Below are positions 9,001 to 36,953 of a DNA stretch of 37,709 nucleotides, in pieces (position 1 is the first letter of the stretch; every line of letters begins with the position of its first letter). The notes under the pieces are model-generated. The model was not told the origin of the DNA, did no database searches, and saw only the letters and a list, made by a program, of their open reading frames with translations. The DNA comes from a virus. The translations under genes were made by a program, and so were the position numbers. Location: positions 1 through 37,709 of the IMG/VR virus record IMGVR_UViG_3300042889_000966; one strand, written 5' to 3'.

Positions 9001-12000
9001 CTGAATATATCCTGATAAGTGCCACTGTCTGGTAATTTAATATTATTATAGATGCGTTTTTCTAATTCTAATAAGAAATTGTCGCGATAGTCATTAAATG
9101 CCGGAGTGATACTGCCATCATGGCCACGTATGACATTGATAGTGGATCTATAGGTATCGTCTGCCACGATTTCTGGTTTGAATTTTGGATATGTTCCTAG
9201 TTTGCTGGGTGTTTCTGGAATATAGGAGCCATCAGTGTTAGTATATTCCACTAAGGTTATTATGTCATCAACAGCTAACGTAATCACAGTATCATTAATT
9301 GTAATCGCAGGTCGGAGCGTGTCAAACGTATAGTCTATACCTAATATCAACTGCACATTATTTAAATAGACTAACACTGCTGTATTAGTTAAAGTCACAG
9401 ATGAAAAAACCGTAGTGATTTCATAACTGAGTACAAATGGATCAAATACTGTATAGGTTATGGTATTTTTAAGTGTACCATATGGTACCATGTCGCTATA
9501 AAACCATGGCATTGTTGGTGTTTTATTGAGATTAATCTGTGTTATGATTAAATCAACGCTGGCTATAGGATCAGTTGGATCTATGCCAGGTAGGCTAGCT
9601 GCAAGTTCAAGGAATTTGTTTTTAAATTTGGTATATTCACGCTGTGCTAGTTTCACCGAATCTATGAAATTGGCCTGCTGATCTAACAAGAACAGTTGTG
9701 CATAAGGTAATGGTGCACTGTGTTGTAGGATAGTACCACCTTGAGATTTAATTTCAAGATCGCGAAGATTACACGCACCCAACACATCACCGACAATGTT
9801 GGTGCTATTCCTGCTGAGTTCTACAACGTGATTTCTAATTTGTCCTAAAGTTAAATCTGTAATGTCAACATTCTGTGCATTGAGATCTAAATTTAATGGA
9901 ATTGCATAATGTCCCAAAGTGCTGATTTCTGTACTGTAGATTTCTACATCAACAGTATCGCCTACAGCCAATGTCGTCAACAGTGTTAGTTTATCGTCAG
10001 TGCTTAATGTCCACTTATCTTGTTTAAGAAATGTTTTGTTTTGATAAACTTTAACATAAGGAATAGTATTTGTTGTACCATGAACATTTTGTGCATTTGG
10101 GGTAATGTCTAAAACAAATGGACTATTAGTTCCATCATATTCAAACGTTATTAATTGATACTGGCGACTAGGTTCTATAACTGTGCGCCAGGTATTTTTA
10201 GCAACAGTAGTTGTTCTATCATTGATAGATTGTAGAAATCCTATGCTGATATTTTCATTGATAGTCTCTTGATCAACAACATATTCAAATGTATCAGTAT
10301 TAAAGTAATTAGAGAACAGGATATCGCCTTGACTTTGGAAACTCCTATAGCTCAATGTAAACCCTAATACCGCATCATCTGCACCTGATGTATTTCTTTG
10401 ATATCCAAAAACTCTAGTGCCGACAAATGTACTGCGAGGATAATAATTAATATCAGATAAACTCACACCATTACTGTCGTAAACATCAAATAATGGATCT
10501 TGTTGTAGTGCAGTTTTTTGTTGGCTTTCTAACCAATTAACTCCGTTGTACCACCAAGCACTACCTTTATATTCTCCTAATTTGACAACCACAGAATCCC
10601 ACTCAGCTGCATCACCATCGTCTGCTATGGTTAATTTAATACGTTTGGCTCCTGTTGGTCTACCCAGCGTATCAACTTCAAACTGCACGAGATTTAACAC
10701 ATATATTTTATCTCTTACCAACGGATCTTCATCTTCAGCAAACAGCACACGCATACCATTAAATAGGGTGACTCCAAACGCACCTTCACCTATAAAATTA
10801 ACCGTGTCGGCTGTACCAACCAAGACACCATCATAGTAAACCTCTGCTGGATTGGGTGCAGGTTGCGGAACATAAGTTATTGTGCCACCATCATCTACTA
10901 ATTGTCCTTCGAGTTGATTAAAAGCATCTGTGATATTAGTGTCTAATATATCAATATATCGTTTACCAATGCGACCATGATTGAATAATTGCAGATCATC
11001 TTCAAACTGCACGATAGGTCGCTGGGCACGCAGTCTCTGATCTAGTATTAGCACATCATTATTATATTCTGCGGTAGCTTTGATCACATCCACATGATAC
11101 CAACAATTATTGCGAGACCAAGCATTTAGGTCTAATGCATCTCGTTTGATAGTGATATAGTCAGGAAATACTGTTTCAGCAAATGCATCATAAACAGTAG
11201 TTCCACTTGTTATTCCGTTACCTGTGACTGTCATACCTTTAGTGATAGCATCTACAGAATTCAGCGTGGTGATTTTAATCGCCCCCAGCGCTGTTTCCTT
11301 GTTAGTTTCGATGGTAAAACTTCCTACTGTGATCACGGTACCACCAGGAATTATAGCATTAGTTGCGAGGCTTAATACTATCTGTTGTACGGGGTAATTA
11401 GTCGCTAGTTCATCATTAAATGGTTCGGGCTTTACTAATAGATCAATATCAACTAATCTAATACTATTACCAACGTTTTCTACGATGTAGGTATTACCCT
11501 GATATGCCGCAGGAGTAACATCAGTATCAAATTGTATTTTTAATCCACTGGTAAATTCTACACCATTGGGACTAGTATAATTAAGTTCACCTAATATATC
11601 ATCTTCAACATCAATATTAAAACCGCTTGGATCGACTATTTTAATCTTGGTATAGATATCACTTCTCAAACTGTCTTGGATCACAAGATTATTTGCCGTA
11701 GCAGTAATCAACGGCATGCGTTCAAAGAATCCTGTAAATTCTTTATAGAATTCTTGATTAGCGTTAACTAATCCATATCGGATATATACTTTTTGATCTA
11801 TGGCAACAGCAATAAATGGATAGGCATTTATTAAATAGTCACTGCCAGTTGGAATAAGCTGTATCTTCCAGACGCCATATCTTAATGCGTCAGGAACCAC
11901 ACTACCTTTATCATAGGTTATAGATACACTGTCTTCTTCACCAGCCACTGTCCAGGCTTCTTCACCAAAATTAGTTAACAGATTTTGATCAACAAAAATC

Positions 12001-24066: not shown

Positions 24067-25083
24067 ATGGCTAATCTATTCAAGAAAGCAGCTGTTCTGA
24101 CTGACATCCATTTTGGATTAAAGTCTAACAGTAGTACACACAACGACGATTGTCTTAACTTTGTTAAATGGTTTATAGAAACCGCCAAGGCCGAGGGCTG
24201 TGATACCTGTTTTATGACAGGTGACTGGCATAACAATCGAGCGGCAATCAACATAGTCACACTGAATTATAGCCTCACTGCCCTAGAATTATTGGGCAAG
24301 GCTTTTGATCGTGTGTTCTTTATTCCGGGCAATCACGATTTATACTATAGAGATAAACGTGATATCCAATCAGCAGAGTGGGCTAGACATATTCCTAACA
24401 TTGAGATCATCAATGACTTTTATAAAGAAGGTGATGTGTCTATCGTTCCTTGGCTAGTCGGCGATGATCATAAGAAACTAGGTAAGATTTCAGCCAAGTA
24501 TATGTTTGGGCATTTGGAATTACCACACTTCTATATGAATGCCATGGTTGCTATGCCAGACACTGGTGAGATCAAAGAAGGCGCATTCAACGGTGTAGAA
24601 AAGGTATTCACTGGACACTTCCATAAACGTCAGACACGTGGCAATATTACCTATATGGGTAATTGTTTCCCGCATAATTATGCCGATGCTGGTGATGATG
24701 ATCGTGGTATGATGATCATTGAATGGGGACAGGAGCCTGTGTTCCGTACTTGGCCAGGACAGCCTAGATATCGTGTTTATAATTTAAGTGATGTACTTAA
24801 AACACCAGAAGCATTGCTATTACCAAGCATGCATTGTCGTGTTAATCTAGACATCGACATCAGTTACGAAGAAGCAACATTTATCAAAGAAACATTTGTT
24901 GGCACATATCAACTACGTGAATTAACATTATTACCAGTTAAGAATGCTGACATTGGCACAGATATCATGCTGGGCAATATTAAATTTGAAAGTATTGACA
25001 GCATTGTTACTAGTCAATTGACTAACATTGCCAGTGAACACTACGATCCAAATTTACTATTAGATATCTATAGGCATCTATAA
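24067..25083 (+). CDS. gp47: Recombination endonuclease subunit gp47 (Mre11-like)
   Basis: This 338-residue protein is almost the same length as T4 gp47 (339). Metallophosphoesterase motifs are in order: DIHFG (Asp13, His15), GDWHNN (from Gly52), GNHD (88-91), FGHLELP (from about 148) and GHFHKR (His184, His186). With gp46 it forms the nuclease/ATPase that resects DNA ends for recombination-dependent replication and helps degrade host DNA. It ends TAATG, overlapping the next gene by one base. In T4 genes 47 and 46 are almost adjacent; here four other genes lie between them. A promoter with no room for a leader precedes it. Confidence 0.93.
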   Translation: MANLFKKAAVLTDIHFGLKSNSSTHNDDCLNFVKWFIETAKAEGCDTCFMTGDWHNNRAAINIVTLNYSLTALELLGKAFDRVFFIPGNHDLYYRDKRDIQSAEWARHIPNIEIINDFYKEGDVSIVPWLVGDDHKKLGKISAKYMFGHLELPHFYMNAMVAMPDTGEIKEGAFNGVEKVFTGHFHKRQTRGNITYMGNCFPHNYADAGDDDRGMMIIEWGQEPVFRTWPGQPRYRVYNLSDVLKTPEALLLPSMHCRVNLDIDISYEEATFIKETFVGTYQLRELTLLPVKNADIGTDIMLGNIKFESIDSIVTSQLTNIASEHYDPNLLLDIYRHL

Positions 25084-25775
25084 TGCCGTTTTTATTTGTT
25101 GACTACGATCAAGGAGCTGGTGGAGAATATTTAAGTTACATTTTAAGTCAATCTCCGCAATGCCAATCTATTGACTATTTTAAAACTAGTACTGGCAGAT
25201 ACAAAGTCAGCGATATATTTGCACAAGAGTTTTTAAAACCTCACCCATGCCCTACTCTAAAGAAAGCACATAATACTCTATACGAAATAGTACCTACCCA
25301 TCGACAAACTTACTTAGGTGCAAGACTATTAAAAAATGTGAACAGTTTACGTATTAGTAATCCAACAAATGAATTGTGGGACTATATCAAACAACAACAA
25401 CTTTATAAAGTATTGTTAACAAGAGAGTCAACCATGCCTATGTTTATTGGTTTAGTTAAGATACTAAATCAAACTGCCTCTAATACGAATTTTTTAAATG
25501 AAATAGATCATAAAATGGATAATTTGTCCTTATTTTTAATTTCCAAAGGTATAAATCCTAGTAAGGAAAATAGAGATCAGAATATTAAAGAATTGTATAC
25601 ACAAGAAGAAGAGCCAGATTTTAATTATAACTTAGTGATTCCGTATGAAAAACTAATCAATGATCCGCAATGGGTTAAAGATGCTATTCAGACTGTATTT
25701 AAAATTGATGTAAATATTGATTTATTACAAGTATATAAGACTGATTTTGAAAATGCACAATATACCCCGTCTTGA
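25083..25775 (+). CDS. Putative sulfotransferase-like P-loop protein
   Basis: This 230-residue protein overlaps the gp47 stop by one base (TAATG), so it is probably translationally coupled. The N-terminus FLFVDYDQGAGGEYLSYIL resembles a strand, phosphate loop and helix of the sulfotransferase type. Near the end, VIPYEKLINDPQWVKDAIQT resembles the V-x-Y-E-x-L-x-x-D-P segment common in sulfotransferases. The middle is not recognisable, and a canonical PAPS-binding Arg/Ser motif is not obvious. If the family is right it would transfer sulfate from PAPS or bind a related nucleotide; the substrate is unknown. It is AT-richer than gp47. It could also be a diverged kinase-like protein. Confidence 0.45.
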   Translation: MPFLFVDYDQGAGGEYLSYILSQSPQCQSIDYFKTSTGRYKVSDIFAQEFLKPHPCPTLKKAHNTLYEIVPTHRQTYLGARLLKNVNSLRISNPTNELWDYIKQQQLYKVLLTRESTMPMFIGLVKILNQTASNTNFLNEIDHKMDNLSLFLISKGINPSKENRDQNIKELYTQEEEPDFNYNLVIPYEKLINDPQWVKDAIQTVFKIDVNIDLLQVYKTDFENAQYTPS

Positions 25776-26577
25776 TTTTATGATTGCCTACAGTTGTAAC
25801 CTAGCATGTAAAGGTTGCATAAGTCTGAGCGACTTTGATCGTGACGGAGTTGTATCTATAGAAGATATAGCTACATGGTGTGAGGAATGGCATACAATAC
25901 TGTCTCCAGAAGTTATTACATTATTTGGAGGAGAGCCCACCTTACACCCTAAACTACCAGAAATTTGTAAAATTGTGAGAGACCGCTGGCCTAATGCAAC
26001 AATACGTTTAATTACTAACGGATATTTATTGGATAATTTTTCCAGCAACATATGGTTTAATTATAGTCCATTTGAAATACAAGTTAGTATACATCGTTTA
26101 GATCACGAACATCTTATAAATGCAAAAATAAAAAATATTTTATTGCTATATAAAGACTGGCATGTAACTAAACACACCAACAACCACAAACAATTAGAAT
26201 GGTCTAGACCCGGATTCAAGATATATAAAAGTAAATTTGGCGAATTTATTGCTCCGTACCAGTTACAAAATGGTAGACCAATTGCCGCCCTGGGCGATCC
26301 TTATAGCGCACATGCCATCTGTGGATCTCCGGATACGCCTGTGCTGTATAAAAACAAACTATACAAATGTCCAGCAGTAGCCAATGTCATAGACTATACC
26401 AAAGAAAATTGGTTAGGATATCAACCTATGGCTAGCACTGATGATCTGACTACTTTTATAAGTTTAATTAATAAACCCGAATCAGTTTGTGCGCAATGTC
26501 CAGATCAAACTAAAGCAATAGTATTTAATCATCAGAATAAGGATACAGTCGTTGTCAGACAAAAAAATCTTAATTAG
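25753..26577 (+). CDS. Radical SAM protein
   Basis: This 274-residue protein starts at ATG 25753, inside the end of the previous gene (23-base overlap). Cys15, Cys19 and Cys22 in CNLACKGC form the CX3CX2C site for the 4Fe-4S cluster that cleaves S-adenosylmethionine. GGEPTLHP (from Gly59) is the SAM-binding GGE motif, and LITNGYLL is the usual next strand. The C-terminal third has further cysteines (CGSPDTP, YKCPAV, CAQCPDQ) that could bind an auxiliary cluster, as in SPASM or twitch proteins. The reaction and substrate cannot be read from the sequence. It is one of four radical SAM genes within about 9 kb. Confidence 0.85.
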   Translation: MHNIPRLDFMIAYSCNLACKGCISLSDFDRDGVVSIEDIATWCEEWHTILSPEVITLFGGEPTLHPKLPEICKIVRDRWPNATIRLITNGYLLDNFSSNIWFNYSPFEIQVSIHRLDHEHLINAKIKNILLLYKDWHVTKHTNNHKQLEWSRPGFKIYKSKFGEFIAPYQLQNGRPIAALGDPYSAHAICGSPDTPVLYKNKLYKCPAVANVIDYTKENWLGYQPMASTDDLTTFISLINKPESVCAQCPDQTKAIVFNHQNKDTVVVRQKNLN

Positions 26578-27226
26578 CGGATGTGGGATTTCGTGGAGCG
26601 GCCAAGAGCGCAAAACTTGGGTTAACATCTTTAAGGTAGCAGGATTGGATATCACTGATGTTGGTGGCCCTGCTGTTAGTAATCAGTGGATTTTAAATCG
26701 TGCCATCGAATATGTGCTATCTAATACCATAGATATTGTTATAATCCAGCTAACTTCTTTAGGTAAATTAGATGTAGAAATAAATCAATCAAGGTATGAT
26801 GAGCTTGTGTCTAATGATACTCTAAGAAATTTTACCATCGATGGAATTTGGCCTAGTAGTTGTAGTTTAGAGCATCAATCTAAACAGTTATGGGCGGAAT
26901 GGTTATACAGTCCTAGATTAGAATTACAGGATATACAAGTTAAATTAGAATTACTAAAATTTTATTGCCAAACAAAAGATATTACATTGTTAGTTCTGGA
27001 GGGATATGAAATATTGCCCGAACAAACCAATATTATATACAACGACTATATAGAATCTGATAATTACAAATTTCATGATCACACAGATAATAATGCAGTT
27101 CCGTGTTTAGAATATCAATTTACATTGGCTAAGAATATTTGCAGTCTTTTATCGTTGGATGTACTCGATAAGATTGAAAAAATTGAACAACAATACCGAC
27201 ATAAAAGGTCAACCAATGATTCTTAG
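26552..27226 (+). CDS. Hypothetical protein, possibly SGNH hydrolase-like
   Basis: This 224-residue protein probably starts at TTG 26552, which has AAGGAT about 8 bases upstream and overlaps the previous gene by 26 bases. The N-terminus KKILISGCGISWSG looks like the first strand and Ser-containing turn of SGNH/GDSL-type folds. A central strand DIVIIQLTSLGK and a late FHDHTDN segment could supply the other sites, but the full block set is not clear. If it is a hydrolase, it could act on an ester or sugar. It lies within the AT-rich cassette between gp47 and gp46. Function is otherwise unknown. Confidence 0.5.
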   Translation: MSDKKILISGCGISWSGQERKTWVNIFKVAGLDITDVGGPAVSNQWILNRAIEYVLSNTIDIVIIQLTSLGKLDVEINQSRYDELVSNDTLRNFTIDGIWPSSCSLEHQSKQLWAEWLYSPRLELQDIQVKLELLKFYCQTKDITLLVLEGYEILPEQTNIIYNDYIESDNYKFHDHTDNNAVPCLEYQFTLAKNICSLLSLDVLDKIEKIEQQYRHKRSTNDS

Positions 27227-27246
27227 TCAAATATAAAGTTAAAGTT

Positions 27247-28020
27247 ATGTCAAATTCAATAGCACTATTGGGATTACCCGGCTTATATCAAAACTGGCTT
27301 ATGTCAGCATTGGATAAAGATTCTCAATTAACGGTAATTGCAGAACGTAACTTTAAATATCAGGGTTCAAATTTTGACTGGTATTATTATCAACAAGATT
27401 TAAAATCAGAATCTTATAATCATGTTATAAATTTATATGTTGAAGAAGAAAATTTTATTTGGTTCTTGTATAATTTTTTAGAAAAGACCTGCGAAATAGG
27501 TATAATGGTTGACGATTTACTTAATTCCTTGTATACTAAAGGTGTAGGTACTATCGCATTTGATCAGTTAGTAAAACATTTTACAAGTAGTTACAATATC
27601 ACTAGTGAATCTTCTGAAGACTACTGTAAAAATGCTGCCATCGAATATTTTTATTTTTTGCTAATAGAAAAAAATGCAGAATTTAAAATTATCGCCGCAC
27701 GTACCAATGATCAGTATATTAATATTGAATATGACGATTTTAATGATGTTGACGTATTGGTAGATAAATTAAAGCGGTTACCAGTATTTAATCTAAAACA
27801 TTTTTTAAAATGCTACAAGAAATTAAATGAAACAAATATGCGATTTTTAAAGCACAAGGAAGAATTTAAAAATAAAACTGAAAATTTTGATATCTTGGAA
27901 ACTGCGTATCTAGGATACCTAATAACATCGCAATCTGGCGAACAACTAGATTGGTTTAATAGTAATTTGCGAAATACCAAGATCAACGAATACTTAAAAG
28001 GCGCAAATAAAATTGTTTAA
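27247..28020 (+). CDS. Hypothetical protein, possible diverged sulfotransferase-like fold
   Basis: This 257-residue protein starts at ATG 27247 without an obvious Shine-Dalgarno. The N-terminus IALLGLPGLYQNWLMSAL resembles a strand, loop and helix similar in layout to the protein at 25083-25775, and INIEYDDFNDVDVLVDKLKR resembles the late Y-(E/D)-D segment. The middle is rich in aromatic residues and not recognised. The DNA is very AT-rich: hand counts of two sample 60-base lines gave 17-25% G+C, against 37% in a line of gp46 just downstream. It overlaps the gp46 start by 8 bases. Confidence 0.5.
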   Translation: MSNSIALLGLPGLYQNWLMSALDKDSQLTVIAERNFKYQGSNFDWYYYQQDLKSESYNHVINLYVEEENFIWFLYNFLEKTCEIGIMVDDLLNSLYTKGVGTIAFDQLVKHFTSSYNITSESSEDYCKNAAIEYFYFLLIEKNAEFKIIAARTNDQYINIEYDDFNDVDVLVDKLKRLPVFNLKHFLKCYKKLNETNMRFLKHKEEFKNKTENFDILETAYLGYLITSQSGEQLDWFNSNLRNTKINEYLKGANKIV

Positions 28021-29785
28021 AATAAAATATCTAACCGTTAAGAACTTCATGAGCGTGGGTAATTCGACTCAGGCTGTTAATTTTGATCGCAAGGACTTGA
28101 CCTTAGTTCTAGGTGAAAATATTGACCTAGGCGGTGATGATACAGGTGCACGTAATGGTACAGGTAAAACTACAATTATTAATGCTCTGAGCTATGCCTT
28201 ATATGGAACAGCACTGACTAACATACGTAAAGATAATTTAGTTAATAAGACTAACACTAAAGCCATGCTGGTCACTATCGACTTTGAAGTCAATGGTGTT
28301 GACTATAAGATTGAACGTGGACGTAAACCCAATGTATTAAAATTCTACATAGGTGAACAGGAACAAGAAGCCAAAGACGACAACAGTCAGGGCGACAGTC
28401 GTGAAACACAACAAGAAATTGAACGTTTATTGGGCATGAGGCATGAGATGTTCAAGCACGTGGTGGCTCTGAATACATACACAGAACCATTTCTAGCATT
28501 AAAGCCAAATGATCAGCGTGCTATAATCGAGCAACTGTTGGGTATTACTTTATTGAGTGAGAAAGCAGAACTACTCAAAGAGCAAAGTAAGGCTACAAAG
28601 GACGCCATACAACAGGAAGAAGCCAACATCAAGGCAGTGTCTGATGCCAATAAGCGTATTGAAGAACAAATTGAAGCTACACAGCGTAGACAAATGCTTT
28701 GGTTAACTAAACGCAAGGATGATGTTGCTAAATTACAGACAGCGTTAGATGAATTACTTAAATTAGATATCGATGCAGAGATTTTCGCACACAAAGAATT
28801 ATCGGTATACAATCAAAAGCGTAAAGATATTACAGATTTAGACAAAGCCATAGCACGTAGTGAGCAGGATCTATCTCGTGAAGTCAAGGGCATTGCTAAC
28901 TTAACTGGTGACATCGCTATCTTGCGTGAACATAAATGTAATACCTGTGGACAAGATTTACATGATAATAAACATGAAGAGTTACTAGCCGTTAAAGAAA
29001 GCAAACTTAAAGATGCAGAAACACAGCAAGGAGTCCATGCTGGAGATTTAGAAGCATTGATCTTAGTCAAACAAGGATTAGGTGAGCTTGGATCTATGCC
29101 TAAGACATTCTATGACAATGAAAGTCTTGCCGTTCAACATCGTAGCAGTATCGCCAGCATACAAGAACAGATCACCAGCAAGACCGTAGAAGAAGATCCC
29201 TACACTGAACAGATCGCAGATATGAAGGCCACTGCACTTGCTGAGATTGATTATACTAAGATGAATGAACTTAGTCGTGTTAAAGATCATCAAGAATTCC
29301 TATACAAACTATTAACAAATAAAGATTCTTATATCCGTAAGAGAATCATCGATCAAAATCTGAGCTACTTGAACGCCAGACTGAGCCAATATCTTGACCG
29401 TATTGGCTTACCCCATACCGTGGTGTTTATGAATGACCTGAGTGTAAACATCACTGAACTAGGACGTGAACTAGACTTTGATAATTTGTCAAGAGGTGAG
29501 CGCAATAGACTTATACTTTCACTGTCATGGAGCTTCCGTGATGTGTGGGAAAGTTTATATCAACCTATTAACTTGTTATTCATTGATGAATTGATTGATT
29601 CGGGCATGGATGCGTCGGGTGTAGAGAATGCCATGGCTATTCTTAAGAAGATGAGCCGTGATGCACACAAATCAATTTGGTTAGTATCACATAGAGATGA
29701 GCTAGGTGGTCGTGTAAATAATGTATTAACCGTTGTCAAAGAAAACGGCTTTACTAGTTACAATACCGATGTTGAGATTATCTAA
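28013..29785 (+). CDS. gp46: Recombination endonuclease subunit gp46 (Rad50-like ATPase)
   Basis: This 590-residue SMC/Rad50-type ATPase is close to T4 gp46 (560). The P-loop is GARNGTGKTT at residues 45-54. A long heptad-like coiled coil follows, with the zinc hook CNTC (Cys309, Cys312) at its turn. The ABC signature LSRGER lies near residue 492, Walker B LLFIDELID near 523, the D-loop SGMD just after, and the His switch in LVSHRDE. It partners with gp47 in DNA end processing. The start is TTG 28013 with AAAAGG about 11 bases upstream; an in-frame stop lies at 27995, so no longer N-terminus is possible. It ends TAATG, overlapping the next gene. Confidence 0.93.
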   Translation: MFKIKYLTVKNFMSVGNSTQAVNFDRKDLTLVLGENIDLGGDDTGARNGTGKTTIINALSYALYGTALTNIRKDNLVNKTNTKAMLVTIDFEVNGVDYKIERGRKPNVLKFYIGEQEQEAKDDNSQGDSRETQQEIERLLGMRHEMFKHVVALNTYTEPFLALKPNDQRAIIEQLLGITLLSEKAELLKEQSKATKDAIQQEEANIKAVSDANKRIEEQIEATQRRQMLWLTKRKDDVAKLQTALDELLKLDIDAEIFAHKELSVYNQKRKDITDLDKAIARSEQDLSREVKGIANLTGDIAILREHKCNTCGQDLHDNKHEELLAVKESKLKDAETQQGVHAGDLEALILVKQGLGELGSMPKTFYDNESLAVQHRSSIASIQEQITSKTVEEDPYTEQIADMKATALAEIDYTKMNELSRVKDHQEFLYKLLTNKDSYIRKRIIDQNLSYLNARLSQYLDRIGLPHTVVFMNDLSVNITELGRELDFDNLSRGERNRLILSLSWSFRDVWESLYQPINLLFIDELIDSGMDASGVENAMAILKKMSRDAHKSIWLVSHRDELGGRVNNVLTVVKENGFTSYNTDVEII

Positions 29786-30894
29786 TGTTTGACTATTCTG
29801 TTATTGATGAATATCAAATTGAAATTACAACCAATTGTAACGCAGCTTGCCCGCAGTGTCCTCGCAACATCAATGGTGGTAAGGTTAATCCGCATTTACC
29901 TGTAGTTTATTTAGATCGGCAGACTATTGATCATGCTTTTCCTGTAGAACTAGTTAGTAGATTACGACAAGTATTTTTTTGTGGCAGTTATGGTGATCCC
30001 ATTGCACACCCTGACTTCTTAGACATACTTAGAGATTTCCGTAATAAGAGTCCTACTGTATGGTTGTATTTACATACCAATGGTGGTATACGCAGTCCCG
30101 AGTGGTGGGCAGAATTAGCTATTATACTAAACGGATATGGTAAAATAGATTTTGGTATCGATGGATTAGAAGATACCAATCATTTATATAGACGCAATGT
30201 CGGTTGGAATAAAGTTATGGCTAATACCCGTGCATTTATATCGGCAGGTGGGAAGGCACAGTGGAACTATATTGTATTTCGTCACAATGAGCATCAAGTC
30301 GAGCAAGCTAAACAGTTAAGTCGAGATATGGGATTTGAATCGTTCTTGCCTCGTAACACAGGTAGATTTTTTAATCACGCCCTAGTAGAAGAAATGACTG
30401 TGTGGCCTGCACCCGGATATACATTAGAACCACCAGTTAATCCACAATATAAAAATCGTTCAATGATTAGGTTGACAGAACTTAAGAACGAGTACAATAA
30501 TATAAAAGACTACTTTGATTCTACAGAAATACGTTGTGATGCATTGTTAGGAAAGAAAGTAGCAATAACAGGTGAAGGACTGGTCATGCCGTGTAACTTC
30601 TTTACACATAATCTATATGATAAGAGATTTCATGACGCAGATACCTTACCCGGACACAATGAATTAAGTAATGTAAATGGTAAAAATCAAATACAAGAAT
30701 TAATTAAACAATATGGTCGCAACAATTTAGATATACACTTTAATTCATTGCAAGATATATTTGCTAATGGATTTTGGCAACATATCGTTGATAGTTGGAG
30801 CAAAGATTTAGACAATGGTAGGATATTTGAGTGCGCCATGACTTGTGGTAGTAAATTATCCAAGGTATGGGATCAAGGGGGCAGTATAAGATGA
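29785..30894 (+). CDS. Radical SAM protein, twitch/SPASM type
   Basis: This 369-residue protein is coupled to gp46 by a one-base overlap (TAATG). CNAACPQC (Cys18, Cys22, Cys25) is the CX3CX2C cluster site. FCGSYGDPIAHPD takes the place of the GGEP SAM-binding motif, followed by LHTNGG and IDGLEDTNHLYR. The C-terminal part has conserved cysteines (IRCDALLG, GLVMPCNFF, FECAMTCGS) that probably hold an auxiliary iron-sulfur cluster. Phage proteins of this kind are common in aquatic T4-like genomes, but their substrate is not known to me. It resembles the protein at 31475-32365 along most of its length, implying a duplication. Confidence 0.87.
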   Translation: MFDYSVIDEYQIEITTNCNAACPQCPRNINGGKVNPHLPVVYLDRQTIDHAFPVELVSRLRQVFFCGSYGDPIAHPDFLDILRDFRNKSPTVWLYLHTNGGIRSPEWWAELAIILNGYGKIDFGIDGLEDTNHLYRRNVGWNKVMANTRAFISAGGKAQWNYIVFRHNEHQVEQAKQLSRDMGFESFLPRNTGRFFNHALVEEMTVWPAPGYTLEPPVNPQYKNRSMIRLTELKNEYNNIKDYFDSTEIRCDALLGKKVAITGEGLVMPCNFFTHNLYDKRFHDADTLPGHNELSNVNGKNQIQELIKQYGRNNLDIHFNSLQDIFANGFWQHIVDSWSKDLDNGRIFECAMTCGSKLSKVWDQGGSIR

Positions 30895-31475
30895 AAATGC
30901 TAGTAACAGGTGGTAATCGTGGACTAGGATTAACTTTGGTTAATCATTTTTCTGCAGATTCTATAAGTCGTGTAGATGGATTAGATATTACTAAAGATAC
31001 CAAAGCAATAGCAGAAAAATCATTAGACTATGATGTGTTTATTAACAATGCTTTTGATGGACCACCGCAAGAAGAATGGGCTAACTTTGGACAAGTACAG
31101 GTATTACATGATGTCTATACGGCATGGAAAACTAATAACAAAAAAGGATATATAATTAACATTGGCAGTGTTGGTGAGCGCACTATTATTGCTCCAGAAC
31201 CTAGTTTTGAAACCTATCGTGTTGCTAAAGCCGCACTAAAACATGCTAGCCTACAGTCAAGCCGAGCATTCAAGGATAATTTAGTACAGTTTAAAACTAC
31301 ATTGTTGACCTTAGATCGTCTAGATACAGAACTTACAAGAAGTCGTGCCAGCTGGACTGGCAACGGAGTCGATTGTAATAATGTTTGCGATCAAATCGCA
31401 ATGATTTTGTCTTTAAATTCTAATTCTTGTATTGAAGAAATAGTGACCTCTGTTAATTTTAACTTTAGTAATTAA
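30891..31475 (+). CDS. Short-chain dehydrogenase/reductase
   Basis: This 194-residue protein starts at ATG 30891, which overlaps the previous stop (ATGA) and has AAGGGGG about 9 bases upstream; an in-frame ATG at 30867 lacks such a site. TGGNRGLG is the Rossmann TGxxxGxG nucleotide site, FINNAF is the NNA motif, INIGSV supplies the catalytic Ser, and YRVAK is the YxxxK pair. All core SDR motifs are present, so it is probably an active NAD(P)-dependent oxidoreductase of sugars or other alcohols. At 194 residues it is shorter than the usual 250, lacking much of the C-terminal substrate region. It sits between two related radical SAM genes. Confidence 0.85.
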   Translation: MKMLVTGGNRGLGLTLVNHFSADSISRVDGLDITKDTKAIAEKSLDYDVFINNAFDGPPQEEWANFGQVQVLHDVYTAWKTNNKKGYIINIGSVGERTIIAPEPSFETYRVAKAALKHASLQSSRAFKDNLVQFKTTLLTLDRLDTELTRSRASWTGNGVDCNNVCDQIAMILSLNSNSCIEEIVTSVNFNFSN

Positions 31476-32365
31476 TGTTAAAACTAAATGATCAAAAAAT
31501 TCAAGTTCTACATTTAGAGCCCACTGATGCCTGTAATGCTGCGTGCCCGCAGTGTTTACGAGAAACAGATATAACGTTTGATAAAAATGATCTACATCAT
31601 CTAACTGTAGAACAAATTAAGTCTATCGTTGATGTGGATACTATTAAAAATTTAAATAAGATGTTTATGTGTGGTACCTATGGTGATCCCGCGGCGGGTA
31701 AACATACATTAGAAATTTATAGATATTTTCGTAGTATAAATCCCACAATAACATTAGGTATGAATACCAATGGCGGGCTGCGTAATACAAGTTGGTGGCA
31801 AGAACTAGCTGACCTATTAAATCAACCTAGAGATTATGTAGTGTTTAGTATTGATGGGCTCGAAGATACTAATCATATCTACAGAGTAAATGTTAAATGG
31901 ACTAAAGTTTTAGAAAATACCCAAGCATTTATTCGTGCCGGTGGAATTGCACATTGGGAAATGTTGGTATTTGAACACAATCAACATCAGATTGACTTAG
32001 CACAACAGACAGCAAAAGATATGGGATTTAAATGGTTTCGTGCTAAAGTTAGTAAAAGATTTAAAACACACCCTATAGAATTTTTAAAGCCACCGGTAGC
32101 ATGGAAGGACCCAAATGTAAATGAAGGAGAGATTGACTGTCAGGCGATTAAAGAATCTAGTCTTTATATATCAGCCAAGGGTATAATATATCCTTGTTGC
32201 TGGTTGGGTCCAAGTGAGAATTCTATCGATAAGTTTGATAGTATACAAAAATCTTGGGCTAGTACTGCGCCAAATAATATTTGTGTAGCAACCTGCACTA
32301 AAAATGTTTTTGGAACTAGTTTCACTAATCAATGGCAAAGAGAAGTAGAATTTCAATTTGCATAG
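31475..32365 (+). CDS. Radical SAM protein, twitch/SPASM type, paralogue
   Basis: This 296-residue protein begins at ATG 31475, one base inside the SDR stop (TAATG). The cluster site is CNAACPQC (Cys20, Cys24, Cys27). MCGTYGDPAAG, MNTNGG and IDGLEDTNHIYRVN closely match the protein at 29785-30894. The C-terminus has IDCQAIK, GIIYPCCW and CVATC, candidates for an auxiliary cluster. It is about 70 residues shorter than its paralogue, mainly in the C-terminal half. The pair flanking an SDR suggests they act on the same or successive substrates; this is inference. Confidence 0.87.
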   Translation: MLKLNDQKIQVLHLEPTDACNAACPQCLRETDITFDKNDLHHLTVEQIKSIVDVDTIKNLNKMFMCGTYGDPAAGKHTLEIYRYFRSINPTITLGMNTNGGLRNTSWWQELADLLNQPRDYVVFSIDGLEDTNHIYRVNVKWTKVLENTQAFIRAGGIAHWEMLVFEHNQHQIDLAQQTAKDMGFKWFRAKVSKRFKTHPIEFLKPPVAWKDPNVNEGEIDCQAIKESSLYISAKGIIYPCCWLGPSENSIDKFDSIQKSWASTAPNNICVATCTKNVFGTSFTNQWQREVEFQFA

Positions 32366-32410
32366 TAGATAAAATAAATTAAACTATATAAGATATAGAA
32401 GGAGAAAAAC

Positions 32411-32608
32411 ATGGCAGGTGGAGCAACAGCAAGAGTACATCCAGGTAAAAGGAAAGCTAACCCAATGTTAACACGTAATGGTAAAACCAGACTGGGCCCA
32501 TTGAATGTCGCACAATTAACAGCGATGTTAGATAAAACACAACGTAAGAAAGATAAAGCAAAACTCTCTAGAGAAATCGCTAGGAAACAAGCAAGATTAG
32601 CAGTATAA
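32411..32608 (+). CDS. Small basic protein of unknown function
   Basis: This 65-residue protein has AGAAGGAG 6 bases before ATG 32411. It is strongly basic (for example KTQRKKDKAKLSREIARKQ), with an N-terminal half rich in Gly, Arg and Pro and a C-terminal charged helix. The composition suggests nucleic-acid binding or packing of a virion or host component, but no family is recognised. It is followed 22 bases later by another small helical protein with a similar ribosome site. Confidence 0.65.
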   Translation: MAGGATARVHPGKRKANPMLTRNGKTRLGPLNVAQLTAMLDKTQRKKDKAKLSREIARKQARLAV

Positions 32609-32629
32609 TTTTAAAAAGGAAAAGTAAAC

Positions 32630-32815
32630 ATGGCAATTCATGATGATATTTTAGCAGCAGTTGAACTATACAAAGCAGAATCAGAAAAATTTGAAGGCAA
32701 GGGAGTTAAAGCTTCAGCGGCACGTGCTCGTGGCGCATTAGGTGATCTAGCTAAATTAGCAAAAGCCAGACGTGCAGAAATCCAAGAGAAGAAAAACGCA
32801 CTAGGTTCTAAATAA
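32630..32815 (+). CDS. Small Ala/Lys-rich helical protein
   Basis: This 61-residue protein has AAAGGAAAAG 6-8 bases before ATG 32630, almost the same leader as the gp55-like gene. The sequence is helical and rich in Ala, Lys and Glu (KASAARARGALGDLAKLAKA), somewhat histone H1-like in composition. No family is recognised. The strong ribosome site suggests high expression. Confidence 0.65.
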   Translation: MAIHDDILAAVELYKAESEKFEGKGVKASAARARGALGDLAKLAKARRAEIQEKKNALGSK

Positions 32816-32823
32816 ATATCTCT

Positions 32824-33258
32824 ATGTCATATGATTATCCTTGGACTTATCTCGGTAAAACTTTTGAGTCTGAGGATATCGCTGACAACTATGGTTTTAT
32901 CTACAGAATAACAAATACCACAAATGGCTTTGATTATATAGGCCGCAAATATTTTACTACCATCAAAAAGAGACCACCTCTAAAAGGCAAGAAAAACAAG
33001 CGCAGGGAAACAGTTGAGACTGATTGGAAAGACTATTGGGGTTCATCTGCTAGACTAGTTGAAGATATGGCTAGGCTAGGAAAAGACAAGTTTACACGTG
33101 AGATCATACATTTATGTAAGAGCCGCGGTGAAACAAACTACATGGAAGCGTACTATCAATTTAAAGAAGGCGTGCTGTTGAAAGAAAACAACTACAACGG
33201 TATCATACAAATTAAACTTGGTAAGAATTCCGTTAAAGACATAAAATTTACAAAATAG
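32824..33258 (+). CDS. GIY-YIG-like nuclease (putative)
   Basis: In this 144-residue protein GFIY at residues 24-27 and YIGRK at 38-42 match the two-strand GIY-YIG core, with Arg41 as the usual basic residue and Glu103 or Glu108 (GETNYMEAYY) as the likely metal-binding acid. A basic insert (PPLKGKKNKRRE) follows the core. YWGSSARL resembles a segment of Seg-type phage homing nucleases. It could be a homing endonuclease or a junction- or lesion-cutting enzyme; no DNA-binding C-terminal domain is visible. The start ATG 32824 comes 8 bases after the previous stop with no clear Shine-Dalgarno. Confidence 0.6.
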   Translation: MSYDYPWTYLGKTFESEDIADNYGFIYRITNTTNGFDYIGRKYFTTIKKRPPLKGKKNKRRETVETDWKDYWGSSARLVEDMARLGKDKFTREIIHLCKSRGETNYMEAYYQFKEGVLLKENNYNGIIQIKLGKNSVKDIKFTK

Positions 33259-33267
33259 GAAATAACG

Positions 33268-34650
33268 TTGAATGAATATGTTGTAATCGCAGCGATACCG
33301 TATGTTGATACTCCAACAGCCCCAATGGCAGCCCCTGCGGTATTAAAAGCATGTTTAGAAAAGAATAATATATCTTCTATTGCATTAGATCTCAATATAG
33401 AAGTGTTAGTTAAAACTAAAAATCATCCGTTGACAAAACAATTGGAGGATTTTTATTATCATGAAATTATTCATGATGAAGCCGTTGAATATATTAGTCA
33501 AATATTACATTACTGTGCTAATAGGATACTAACTAATAATCCTACTATAATAGGACTTAGCTTATTAACCTATGAATGCCAAACTTTTACTGTTTGGCTA
33601 TGTGTACTATTGCGTGAATTAGCACCCAACTGTAAAATTATTATAGGTGGACCGGGAACAAAATATGAAATAAGTTCCGATGATTCTATCTTTAAAGAGA
33701 AATTAAAAAGTGAAAATCTAATAGATGCTTATATCACTGGAGATGGTGATCAAAGTTTTGTAGAGTATATAAAAGGCAATTTATCCTATCCGGGAATTAA
33801 TTCTGAAATATGGGATCAAAAAATAGTTTTAGATGAGTTACCCATACCCGACTATTCAGATTATAATTTTTTCTGGTATAGCCGTCCATTTATACCGATT
33901 GTTGATGCAAAAGGATGTGTTAGACGTTGTGAATTTTGTGATGTGATTGAATTTTGGAATAAGTTCAGATATCGATCAGCTAATAGCCTTTTTTTAGAAA
34001 TGTTAGAACAACACAAAAAATATAAAATTAAAAATTTTGATTTTAGAAGTAGTATTAGCAACGGAAATCTTAAAGAGTTTACTCAATTAATAGAGTTGAT
34101 AGTAGACTATAATAAAGATAAATGTAGACCAGAACAATTTTCATGGAATGCCTCATTTATTATCAGACCTGCAAAACACCACCCAGAAAGTTTATGGGAG
34201 AATATAAGTGCATCTAATGGTACACTAGCATTGGGAGTAGAGAGTGTAATACCTACAGTCAGATCAGAATTAGGTAAAAATTTTTCAAATGAAGATATTG
34301 ATTATCATCTTGAAATGGCTAAAAAATATAATGTCAAACTAAACATTATGATTATCACGGGATATACCACAGAAACACTAGAAGATTATGAGTATACAAA
34401 GCAGTGGTTTAAAGATAGAAAACAATATGCAATAAATCCAGTGGCTAGACTATTTTTAAATAAATTAGTAATATTACCTAATACTGCATTAAATAAAAAA
34501 AGTAAAGAATTGGGTATTATTAATATAGAAAGTGGCTCACAATGGGTCAATGTCAAATCTAAGATCAGCCTAGAGCAACGAAATCAGTATCACAGTGAAC
34601 TTGTTAAATTATGTCAAGAGGAATGCGGTTTTAATTTTGATGCTTACTAA
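33268..34650 (+). CDS. Radical SAM protein with cobalamin-binding-like N-terminal domain
   Basis: This 460-residue protein starts at TTG 33268, with AGGAA about 7 bases upstream. The N-terminal 170 residues look like a B12-binding Rossmann domain (VVIAAIPYVDTPTAPMA, IIGLSLLTYE, IIIGGPG, YITGDGDQ), but no DxHxxG cobalamin-ligand motif is seen. The core has CVRRCEFC (Cys217, Cys221, Cys224) and later LALGVES and LNIMIITGYTTET, typical of the B12-type radical SAM group. Such enzymes methylate or rearrange unactivated carbons in lipids, peptides or nucleotides. The substrate here is unknown. The gene is AT-rich, like the other cassette members. Confidence 0.85.
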   Translation: MNEYVVIAAIPYVDTPTAPMAAPAVLKACLEKNNISSIALDLNIEVLVKTKNHPLTKQLEDFYYHEIIHDEAVEYISQILHYCANRILTNNPTIIGLSLLTYECQTFTVWLCVLLRELAPNCKIIIGGPGTKYEISSDDSIFKEKLKSENLIDAYITGDGDQSFVEYIKGNLSYPGINSEIWDQKIVLDELPIPDYSDYNFFWYSRPFIPIVDAKGCVRRCEFCDVIEFWNKFRYRSANSLFLEMLEQHKKYKIKNFDFRSSISNGNLKEFTQLIELIVDYNKDKCRPEQFSWNASFIIRPAKHHPESLWENISASNGTLALGVESVIPTVRSELGKNFSNEDIDYHLEMAKKYNVKLNIMIITGYTTETLEDYEYTKQWFKDRKQYAINPVARLFLNKLVILPNTALNKKSKELGIINIESGSQWVNVKSKISLEQRNQYHSELVKLCQEECGFNFDAY

Positions 34651-35029
34651 TATTAAATTATTATTAGAAATTGGTTCAGACAGTACTAGAATAATCGTAT
34701 CTGACAGACATAAAAATGTTTTACAAACAATATACAATGTACAAGAAGTATTAATAGAAAATAAAATTGAATTCCCAAACACACTTACACTAGCAATAGA
34801 CAATCCCACAGGCACATTTATAAAATTAAAAGATTTGTGGCTAGGAGGTATAAAATTACCTAAAAATGTTTTATACCAAATTGGCAACTTTACTGATACT
34901 AAATCAAACTCAACTTACACAACGTATTGGACAACTTCTGGCACAGCAACTATTAATTTTCACAGCAACGACTTTATTCAATATCATTTAATATACGGTA
35001 ACAAATTAAGAGCCCTTTTGCAGACATAG
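34640..35029 (+). CDS. Hypothetical beta-rich protein
   Basis: This 129-residue protein has its ATG at 34640, overlapping the radical SAM stop by 11 bases. It is predicted to be mostly strands, with IKLLLEIGSDSTRIIVSDR at the start, LWLGGIKLPKNVLY in the middle and a Ser/Thr/Asn-rich C-terminal half. The pattern is compatible with a small beta-sandwich such as a binding module, but no family is recognised. It is the last protein gene before the structured RNA candidate. Confidence 0.6.
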   Translation: MLTNIKLLLEIGSDSTRIIVSDRHKNVLQTIYNVQEVLIENKIEFPNTLTLAIDNPTGTFIKLKDLWLGGIKLPKNVLYQIGNFTDTKSNSTYTTYWTTSGTATINFHSNDFIQYHLIYGNKLRALLQT

Positions 35030-35455
35030 TTCTGTGTCATGAGGAGATCGTGCTACGTTTAAGTACCGCACGTGGAACGCTTAGATAAGACTAAGCACAT
35101 GACGGCCAGGCAATATCAATTTAGGTGTAAAAACCAAAAGATTCGGGCTCCGAAACAAACCGACCCGAGAGCAATCTATAGTTAGCTAACTATGGCTATA
35201 GATGCTACCGCCAGATGAATCTAGAGTAGGGAGTACAGGCTGACCGCTTCCGTGTATGTGATTACAATCTCTTTTAGTTAGTACGCGAGAAGGACTCAGA
35301 TAAAGTCTTCGTTGTAATTTGCCTGTTGTAGGTAAATTACGACTGAAAGATCTAGATAAAGCATGAAGAACTAATAATAAATCAAAGTTATTAGAGTAGA
35401 AAGAAAAGCATGAGCGCAAGCGAAATGCAGATGTCGTAGACATCTTAAAACGGTG
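35030..35455 (+). ncRNA. Candidate large structured RNA
   Basis: About 425 bases contain no credible gene but many helices. They are: a junction closed by 35036-35041/35098-35103 enclosing hairpins 35049-35056/35063-35072 and 35079-35084/35091-35096; 35143-35147/35164-35168; 35170-35181/35196-35206 (11 bp with one bulge); a long-range helix 35219-35225/35351-35357 enclosing 35234-35239/35250-35256, 35268-35271/35287-35290, 35291-35296/35304-35309 and 35314-35323/35331-35340 (10 bp); then 35371-35377/35388-35394, a GCAA tetraloop hairpin at 35408-35428, and 35429-35435/35439-35445. G-U pairs and the GNRA loop favour the plus strand. I do not recognise the family; GOLLD- or ROOL-like phage RNAs are possible comparisons. 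The promoter and 3' end are not defined. Confidence 0.55.
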
Positions 35456-35460
35456 TCAAC

Positions 35461-35492
35461 AAAAAAGCGTAAGCAAATGAATACTTACGCTT
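35461..35492 (-). terminator. Rho-independent terminator of the small membrane protein gene
   Basis: A perfect 9-bp stem AAGCGTAAG/CTTACGCTT (35484-35492 with 35465-35473) is followed on the minus strand by six T residues (35466-35461). It lies about 28 bases after the stop of the leftward gene ending at 35520. On the plus strand the stem is not followed by a T tract, so the terminator works mainly leftward. Confidence 0.85.
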
Positions 35493-35519
35493 GTCTATAA
35501 CCAAAAAGAACTTATACGA

Positions 35520-35753
35520 CTATTTGTTCTTCCAAATTGAATACAGTACCCATACTGCCACTAGACCAACAACACCTTCACCGCCTAATGCTTTGACGAT
35601 TCCAGTAACGTTACCAATAACGTCAACTGCTGGTAGGAATGGGATGGCTGCTCCCTTGAGTAATACTTCTAACACGATAAGCAATGCAATAACGCTGACT
35701 GCTGTATCTGACAAGGCACCCGCCCATTTCTTAATTGTAGCTAAGATTTCCAT
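35520..35753 (-). CDS. Small membrane protein with two transmembrane segments
   Basis: In this 77-residue protein, residues about 16-38 (AVSVIALLIVLEVLLKG and on) and about 59-74 (GVVGLVAVWVLYSIW) are strongly hydrophobic, joined by a segment with VDVIGNVTGIVKALGG. The N-terminus has a short amphipathic helix and the C-terminus is basic. Small proteins of this look recur in marine phage genomes. A holin or inner-membrane role is possible but unproven. The start ATG 35753 has a strong AAAGGAG upstream, and its own terminator follows, so it may be an independently and highly expressed unit. Confidence 0.75.
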   Translation of the reverse strand: MEILATIKKWAGALSDTAVSVIALLIVLEVLLKGAAIPFLPAVDVIGNVTGIVKALGGEGVVGLVAVWVLYSIWKNK

Positions 35754-35801
35754 TATCTGGAGTCTCCTTTAAAACCAACACTGCTTTCGCAATGGGTAAT
35801 C

Positions 35802-35868: not shown

Positions 35869-36102
35869 CTAAAAGAAAGGTAGTTTGGTTTTTTCTGTGG
35901 TTTCTATATTATCTTTGATGATCTTATTGATTAGTTCACGATCATTAAAACTCAACTGCATAGCATCTTCGTAAGATATACTACCTCGCATGTACCAGGC
36001 CATTCTCAGCGCATCATCTCTATAGGCTCTTACCTCTTTTTCGTAGCCTTCGATCAAGGCCGCGACTGCGTCGTTATCTAGTGTTAAGAGCCTTATGCGA
36101 AA
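35869..36102 (-). CDS. -1 frame extension of the gp26-like gene
   Basis: This open frame continues in the -1 phase from the end of the gp26-like gene to a stop at 35869, encoding about 77 residues: FRIRLLTLDNDAVAALIEGY, then MAWYMRG, SYEDAMQLSFNDRELINKII and a KLPFF terminus. There is no ATG or GTG at its start. The first usable codon, TTG 36057, has no Shine-Dalgarno and would discard residues that look coding. Expression by frameshift at T-TTT-TTC (36105-36099) is the simpler reading, giving a fusion of roughly 360 residues. The short helical tail resembles the downstream frames of phage tail-assembly chaperones. It might correspond to a separate small gp51-type assembly factor if initiation at TTG does occur. 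Confidence 0.65.
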   Translation of the reverse strand, partial: FRIRLLTLDNDAVAALIEGYEKEVRAYRDDALRMAWYMRGSISYEDAMQLSFNDRELINKIIKDNIETTEKTKLPFF

Positions 36103-36953
36103 AAACTCGCGTAGTCAAAGGTGATGTTCACTGGGAATTCTTTCTTGCACTCCTCAGTCAAGCAGGTAACATCAACTGGTTTGATAGCGGCTTGTTCACT
36201 TAGCTCAGCTAGGTAACCCTGTACTTTCTTGATGATCCTATTGTCTGCATTGTTGTAGAACTCTGTGATATGATCAGGATCGGTGACTAAATCACCCGAC
36301 TCTGTTTCGACCGATTTGGTGCTGTTGGCTAATAGGGCGATATTCAATTCTATGACTTTGGCTATGTGTAGATCAAATTTTGCCTTGGCTTCTTCAGGAT
36401 TGTCCTCTAAACCTGCCAGACTTCGCATGATCTGTTGTTCCTCAAACGCGATCATATTGGTCTTGTTCATGCTGAAATACGGTTGTGGATGCACACGTAT
36501 CTTGAGCCCATCCACGCTTAATGGTATGGTATAATCTGGTGGTGTGATGCTGATCAAAGACTTGCCCAGATCGATAGCATATTCGTTAGATTGGGTGCAG
36601 TGTGGGCACTTGGCACTAAAGTCCATCTGATTACCATAGCTGGCGATACGTATGGCTATAAGTGCTGCATCAACATCTATGCTGGGCATTTTCCATGCAT
36701 CTTTGACAGCAGGGCAACAGCTATGTATGACATCAACTACCCCTTGACCATTGAGTAGAGCATCTGGCGTTTTCAGCGTGATCTCGTCTTTGGTGGTCAT
36801 GCTCATCACACCAATTTCACCATTGGGTGGTAGATCCAATGAGCCCTTGGGCCAGTATTGTCCACCGCTGGGTAGTTTAAAATAGATGCTGGGCTGGCGG
36901 AAATGCTTGGCTAGGGGATTAGTTGATGCGACTGCGGTTGTAGTTTGATCCAT
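36093..36953 (-). CDS. gp26: Baseplate hub assembly protein, gp26-like
   Basis: This 286-residue protein has IYFKLPSGGQYWPKGS near the N-terminus, then MTTKDEITLKTPDALLNGQG, a pattern I associate with gp26-type baseplate proteins of T4-like phages. Two cysteine pairs (Cys116/Cys119 in CPHC and Cys264/Cys269 in CLTEEC) could bind one zinc. The start ATG 36953 has AGGA about 9 bases upstream and a late-type box (AATAAATA at 37002-36995) before it. The last codons read AGT TTT TTC GCA TAA, a slippery heptamer just before the stop, with a second frame open beyond. Hub assembly factors act before tube polymerisation and need not be in the mature virion. Confidence 0.75.
   Translation of the reverse strand: MDQTTTAVASTNPLAKHFRQPSIYFKLPSGGQYWPKGSLDLPPNGEIGVMSMTTKDEITLKTPDALLNGQGVVDVIHSCCPAVKDAWKMPSIDVDAALIAIRIASYGNQMDFSAKCPHCTQSNEYAIDLGKSLISITPPDYTIPLSVDGLKIRVHPQPYFSMNKTNMIAFEEQQIMRSLAGLEDNPEEAKAKFDLHIAKVIELNIALLANSTKSVETESGDLVTDPDHITEFYNNADNRIIKKVQGYLAELSEQAAIKPVDVTCLTEECKKEFPVNITFDYASFFA
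36099..36105 (-). other. Slippery heptamer T-TTT-TTC for -1 frameshifting
   Basis: This is a perfect X-XXY-YYZ heptamer in register with the gp26-like frame, one sense codon before its stop. The -1 frame is open for 77 codons. Short hairpins downstream (CGAC/GTCG at 36074-36065; GCCTT/AAGGC near 36059-36045) could assist, although they begin about 25-40 bases away. Confidence 0.6.

Follow-up and report, generated by a model that had tools for sequence, protein, structure and literature searches.

What lies between the recombination genes of a T4-like phage and the baseplate hub gene that converges on them? The question is raised by a 37,709-base viral record from IMG/VR (hereafter the window), in which one stretch is free of genes and rich in potential helices. 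Comparison with relatives identifies this stretch as a structured non-coding RNA, encoded on the plus strand and predicted to adopt one conserved pseudoknotted fold. It is set among the following genes.

24067–25083: gp47-like gene, listed with the gp46-like gene
28013–29785, plus strand: gp46-like recombination nuclease gene, upstream of the RNA
32824–33258, plus strand: SegE-like GIY-YIG nuclease gene (Pfam PF19835), the usual upstream neighbour of the RNA
34595–35029, plus strand: upstream ORF of unassigned function, its stop codon within the RNA 5′ end; absent from most relatives
35011–35447, plus strand: whole RNA, ~435 nt, delimited by conservation and structure, with full-length nhmmer matches
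35869–36057: small companion gene of the hub gene
36093–36953, minus strand: baseplate hub gene (phrog_150), convergent with the RNA

The limits 35011 and 35447 are bounds of conservation and structure; the ends set by transcription and processing were not determined. At its 5′ end the RNA shares 18 nt with the 3′ end of the ORF at 34595–35029. A protein-coding reading of the stretch was rejected because overlapping ORFs change frame and place between relatives, with many non-triplet indels.

Beyond the RNA, an inverted repeat at 35464–35492 (AAGCGTAAG...CTTACGCTT) is followed by a T run on the minus strand and is likely the terminator of a minus-strand gene for a 77-aa membrane protein.

Homologues occupy one genomic slot

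Homologues were gathered by two independent fetches, through the convergent baseplate-hub protein and through a 16-base core motif. The first homologues showed 68–92% nucleotide identity, and nucleotide-profile scans enlarged the set to ~110 and then ~170 IMG/VR loci, including contigs of 189–353 kb. Every locus retrieved by the hub-gene search with sufficient flank carries the RNA. In cellular genomes (84,980 species), 45 matches to the short motif alone were found, none with full-profile support.

The ~170 loci share one slot, in which the gp46/47 operon, a nuclease gene and the RNA face the baseplate-hub gene. The order gp55, gp47, gp46, nuclease gene, RNA is constant in all loci with a match, gp46 lying upstream on the same strand in 120. 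A SegE GIY-YIG gene precedes the RNA on the same strand in 145 loci and is replaced there by a PDDEXK gene in 12; on the 3′ side, a gp26-like gene is found on the opposite strand in 144 loci and the hub gene, likewise opposite, in 136 of the 136 loci with a match. Some relatives have acquired inserted genes, homing endonucleases among them, on either side of the RNA. The nuclease gene on the 5′ side and the insertions vary while the RNA is kept, which argues against a role bound to one adjacent gene.

Inspection by eye showed extra HNH-like and GIY-YIG-like ORFs adjoining the RNA downstream in locus L023, on both sides in L162 and upstream in L080, as if the RNA were a homing target.

A conserved fold on the plus strand

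On its own, the sequence of the region folds much more stably than its shuffled versions (z = −3.9 for the plus strand, −4.0 for the minus strand); choosing the strand by folding energy was rejected, as the two fold equally well. Alignment of 38 distinct homologues supports 92 named pairs in 19 helix segments, with 98.2% of cells holding standard pairs against 87.7% in shuffled controls and 31–43% paired when partners were slid by 1–3 columns. Both sides change in 46 of the 92 pairs, and the covariation score reaches 0.326 versus 0.129 after shuffling. Significance was assessed on 49 sequences with a self-written, R-scape-like, tree-based null, under which 21 column pairs were significant: 17 Watson–Crick pairs and four identities that are not base pairs. 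G-U cells exceed A-C cells by 296 to 11, which assigns the RNA to the plus strand. The elements of the predicted fold are as follows.

35012–35106, plus strand: 5′ domain with helices P1–P5, 96–100% paired, with both-side changes
35012-14/35104-06, plus strand: P1
35021-23/35032-34, plus strand: P2
35036-41/35098-103, plus strand: P3
35049-53/35068-72, plus strand: P4
35079-84/35091-96, plus strand: P5
35124-26/35133-35, plus strand: P6, in segment 35124–35206 with P7–P9
35143-47/35164-68 and 35151-52/35161-62, plus strand: P7
35170-72/35204-06, plus strand: P8
35176-84/35193-201, plus strand: P9, 9-bp stem
35185–35192 with 35275–35282, plus strand: 8-bp pseudoknot between the P9 loop (GCUAACUA) and UAGUUAGU
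35208–35272, plus strand: most conserved core, with motif GAGTAGGGNGTACMGGNNGACCGCYTCC and helices P10x, P11 and P12
35223-26/35269-72, plus strand: P10x
35229-33/35247-51 and 35238-39/35244-45, plus strand: P11
35253-56/35263-66, plus strand: P12
35313–35341, plus strand: P14, 12-bp hairpin between the twin words described below, 99.8% paired
35408–35428, plus strand: P16, with a GNRA-like tetraloop, from the comparative helix alignment
35429–35445, plus strand: P17, terminal hairpin AGAUGUC-GUA-GACAUCU, invariant in the main clade

The pseudoknot is 97.6–100% paired; among sequences that span distant clades, six of its seven pairs vary at both positions. P17 has another sequence in distant members, with pairing kept; no U-tract follows it, so it is not an ordinary intrinsic terminator.

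A preliminary description, made from this one sequence, had placed an ORF-poor, multi-helix candidate phage RNA at 35030–35455. The region is real, far above chance by folding z and by covariation on homologues, and conservation, covariation, strand bias and fixed synteny all speak for a large phage RNA; the exact bounds did not hold, P1 beginning at 35012 and the last hairpin ending at 35445. Two long stems, of 11 and 10 bp, had been proposed; a stem of 12 bp (35313–35341) and one of 9 bp (35176–35201) are present. The long-range helix is present, and the GNRA tetraloop is GCAA at 35416–35419. Transcription from the plus strand had been favoured on account of G-U pairs, a preference upheld by the 296:11 ratio, covariation and synteny. 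Lack of covariation, lack of conservation or a conserved protein across the region would have refuted the proposal; each was tested and none was met.

Two variants bear on the periphery of the fold: an insertion of ~120 nt in or near the P12 tip (L162:1632-2196) and, in L021-like members, an extra segment of ~45 nt 3′ of the 5′ domain. The core accommodates such additions at its periphery.

Polynucleobacter-1 is one end of a larger RNA

The window has no match in Rfam 15, and a permissive search of 34900–35800 (E up to 10) returned chance-level matches only. A different result came from the sister clade. Polynucleobacter-1 (RF01718) was a table entry in 2010, from Burkholderiales of fresh water and estuary (PMC2864571); it is a 141-nt motif with no 3′ part in its model, whereas the RNA of the window measures ~435 nt. 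It occupies the same genomic slot and strand as the 5′ domain of the window RNA. At the same locus, L025 has RF01718 (89.5 bits; gathering cutoff 37 bits) in place of the window-type 5′ domain, while L127 and L134 exceed the cutoff and match the core strongly too. When 70 viral loci were picked by the RF01718 signature alone, 63 had the window-type 3′ domain immediately following it in the same orientation. RF01718 scored 84–118 bits in 20 of 20 sister loci tested, and R1, a covariance model of metagenomic members built without the RF01718 clade, matched the core at full length in most tested loci of that clade. Together these matches identify RF01718, at the level of sequence, as the 5′ domain that this larger RNA has in the sister clade. 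The window itself gives no RF01718 match in 34900–35800 up to E 10, its 5′ domain being too diverged for that model. Of the whole family, only the 141-nt sister-clade 5′ domain was previously described, and an orphan Rfam motif thus becomes the end of a large phage RNA in a conserved slot.

Comparison with other RNA families was made with cmscan. GOLLD, ROOL and OLE had no match in the window, in 15 + 20 relatives or in jumbo-phage loci, and models of RNase P RNA, tmRNA and group I/II introns had none in the window or its relatives. The Rfam search suggested in the preliminary description has thus left the window unmatched and its sister clade named as RF01718; it agrees with the view taken there that the RNA is not RNase P RNA, tmRNA or a group I intron. 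A new or diverged member of the ornate phage RNAs had also been thought plausible: a large phage RNA it is, and GOLLD or ROOL, by the Rfam models, it is not. GOLLD and ROOL are large pseudoknotted phage RNAs of unknown function without a known protein partner (PMC12286853), and the present RNA resembles them in all these respects. It differs in being shorter, in lacking any sequence or model match, in the absence of a tRNA gene from the window, in its fixed recombination/baseplate locus, in its multiple copies in jumbo phages and in its twin words. OLE is a large structured bacterial RNA that forms a homo-oligomer (PMC12286853); the phage RNA is likewise large and structured, yet it has no match to the OLE model, OLE is bacterial, and an oligomer can at most be supposed, none having been shown. 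We conclude that the phage RNA is a family of its own.

Multiple copies in cultured jumbo phages

The RNA extends to laboratory-grown, RaK2-like giants that infect E. coli, Salmonella and related bacteria. R1 finds the core in Klebsiella phage RaK2 (30 bits, E 8e-4) and detects 8 of 20 jumbo copies. Conversely, model R2, built from jumbo copies only, finds the window RNA in its exact place (35193–35280, plus strand; E 0.002 in 360 kb) and 21 further loci at the correct place, with E ~1e-6 for L021 and L023. The core fold P10x–P11–P12 is therefore common to the window family and the jumbo copies, by reciprocal detection, and the jumbo copies alone show covariation in the R2 alignment. DNA comparison starting from RaK2 yielded 40 phage records with the RNA, including GAP32, CBB, BF, SNUABM phages, XbC2, XaC1, Munch, 7t3, 121Q, PBECO4, Sharanji and K64-1. 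The sites are mostly unannotated or carry short hypothetical ORFs, and no Rfam family matched in the jumbo loci examined. Copy 3 of GAP32 sits between gp46/EndoVII and the hub gene, the slot of the window; BF_3, Munch_3 and XbC2_3 adjoin hub matches, making four checked genomes, and RaK2 has no copy at the hub slot. Judged by hub protein, the nearest cultured phages are PA5oct, Phosso and Atu_ph07; none of them showed homology by profile, R1 or R2. We found no report of the RNA in jumbo phages, a search confined to open PubMed Central papers and weak evidence of novelty; it seems that a central element of phage biology has gone unnoticed until now.

Five copies are present in GAP32, BF, XbC2, CBB, Munch, fENko, XaC1, Kaldavass and Hallingskeid, four in 121Q and PBECO4, and three in RaK2; large contigs of the metagenomic clade mostly have a single copy. 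All copies within a jumbo genome lie on the same strand, which is uninformative because these phages code mostly on one strand: a passage on CBB gives 34 of 554 ORFs on the other strand (PMC5259590). The gaps between copies vary less than random in eight genomes (P 0.0001–0.005), less clearly in XaC1 and the 121Q group (P ~0.02) and not significantly in RaK2; the genomes are related, and they have their even spacing in common as a single inherited pattern. Most jumbo copies are preceded by an extended −10 element (TGNTATAAT) and a −35-like TGAAAC or TGGGACA, putative promoters that are strong and sigma-70-like. The promoter passages of the CBB paper describe a class TGAAACG/TATA that for the most part precedes a region with many DNA-synthesis genes, and those passages do not mention the RNA (PMC5259590). 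In the clade of the window, neither a conserved promoter nor a U-tract terminator was seen, so that independence from mRNA is only inferred there.

Three minor observations accompany these genomes. RaK2 gp520 (L347:1173-1826; record 6672-7325, minus) is annotated as a hypothetical protein on the strand opposite the RNA and is probably a spurious ORF. Phosso and PA5oct have ORF-free gaps in the gp46/hub region (L224:8229-9244, 1.0 kb, and L223:7528-8192, 0.66 kb); neither R1, R2 nor Rfam matches them, and they may hold RNAs that are unrelated or have diverged very far. Contig G025 (353 kb) gives two R1 matches, at 105248–105416 and 248581–248732, the second unconfirmed.

Twin words matched within the molecule

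The four identities among the significant column pairs (35293/35349, 35298/35354, 35302/35358 and 35304/35360) are each exactly 56 positions apart and join two copies of the word NAYYYRGAUNAW flanking hairpin P14.

35293–35305, plus strand: twin word 1, GACUCAGAUAAAG, in or near a hairpin loop
35349–35361, plus strand: twin word 2, GAUCUAGAUAAAG

The last three identity positions are the same in both copies in 49 of 49 sequences and variable between phages. At least 13 distinct words are represented in 151 loci, paired copies agreeing at 6 or 7 of 7 letters; this reading took the best-matching pair and kept those with at least 6 matches, and is favourable by construction, which the 49-sequence test is not. 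No third site covaries comparably with the words. Such identity covariation is an evolutionary signature overlooked by analyses confined to base pairs.

Jumbo paralogues extend the pattern. Of 47 copies, 43 have matching six-letter words according to the script and 44 on inspection by eye, the other three differing by one letter; when word 2 was shuffled among copies of the same genome, the mean was 36.6 matches and 43 was never reached. The script mis-anchored GAP32_4 (CGUCAG/CGUCAG by eye), and its word-2 anchor presupposes YKUCA. The anchors were adjusted after the sequences had been seen, making this more a description than a blind test. In Munch, copy 4 has CGUCAG twice, copies 1, 3 and 5 have CGUCAA twice, and copy 2 has UGUCA twice. 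The coupling looks intramolecular, a reading of aligned words that is supported rather than proven; independent word changes among paralogues are few and come from three related genomes.

Proposed role and alternatives

The role that we consider probable, in the absence of transcript data, is that of a stand-alone, trans-acting large structural RNA that is made early to middle in infection, is abundant and scaffolds a particle. Its synthesis would precede that of the late genes; in the clade of the window it would probably arise by read-through and processing of the upstream operon transcript. The RNA would then accumulate to high levels, the largest genomes having more copies of it in the manner of rRNA operons, and would serve as scaffold of an RNA–protein or RNA-only particle. 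The twin words may provide two equivalent, mutually matching sites per molecule, for instance symmetric particle contacts. Timing and the role of the words are inferred; abundance and the particle are inferred by analogy, not from data.

Two matching sites whose sequence changes could also belong to a sponge or decoy that titrates one regulator or RNA target of host or phage. We regard this as unlikely: different words per paralogue, matched within each molecule, argue against one fixed partner per genome as sole cause, a shared partner does not require such matching, and no complement to the words was found inside the RNA, nor any enriched in its flanks.

Several relatives have upstream stop codons that abut or overlap P1 and a hub-side gene whose stop abuts P17, as would suit a cis-acting 3′ untranslated element that protects, ends or insulates the convergent transcripts of the gp46 operon and the hub gene. 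A pseudoknotted fold of 430 nt is unnecessary for such a role, however; the RNA is retained as its neighbours change, and the jumbo copies other than those on the hub side have their own promoters and lie between co-directional unrelated genes. A cis element is accordingly given little credence. A comparably slim chance is left to a replication-origin transcript. ColE1 pre-primer RNA II is of this kind, and if each copy were an origin, the even spacing of jumbo copies would be explained. Recombination genes lie near the ancestral slot, and the promoter class described in the CBB passages is linked to DNA synthesis genes (PMC5259590). Against this, the GC skew curve of GAP32 passes all five copies without an inflection, although in this genome skew tracks the strand of the genes, and large metagenomic-clade contigs mostly have one copy. 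A diverged ribozyme or intron-like element, suggested by size, pseudoknot, GNRA loop and nearby homing endonuclease genes, is very improbable, since the Rfam models of group I and group II introns, RNase P and other ribozymes give no match, the RNA lies between genes and splits none, and we know of no catalytic core that its most conserved residues match.

The trans-acting structural RNA that we prefer can be taken further, as a speculation that we hold only tentatively and think rather doubtful: the RNA may act as a core machine across a broad group of T4-like and jumbo phages, encoded in the latter by four to five evenly spaced units resembling rRNA operons and forming its particle through matched identical sites. 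If true, particle assembly would rest on an element of a new kind: two sites of identical sequence that have to match each other within one molecule. RaK2-like cultured giants, one of them, the 121Q-like phage Sharanji, listed with the E. coli host K12 MG1655, have several unannotated copies behind predicted strong promoters, and the role of ornate phage RNAs becomes testable in a laboratory host.

Other features of the window

Several radical-SAM-like ORFs (e.g. 31475–32365 and 33268–34650) lie at 25717–34650, between gp47/gp46 and the RNA, a load unusual for a phage. At the opposite end, an ORF of at least 4291 aa on the minus strand (3–12875) continues past the window edge and probably encodes a giant virion or fibre protein.
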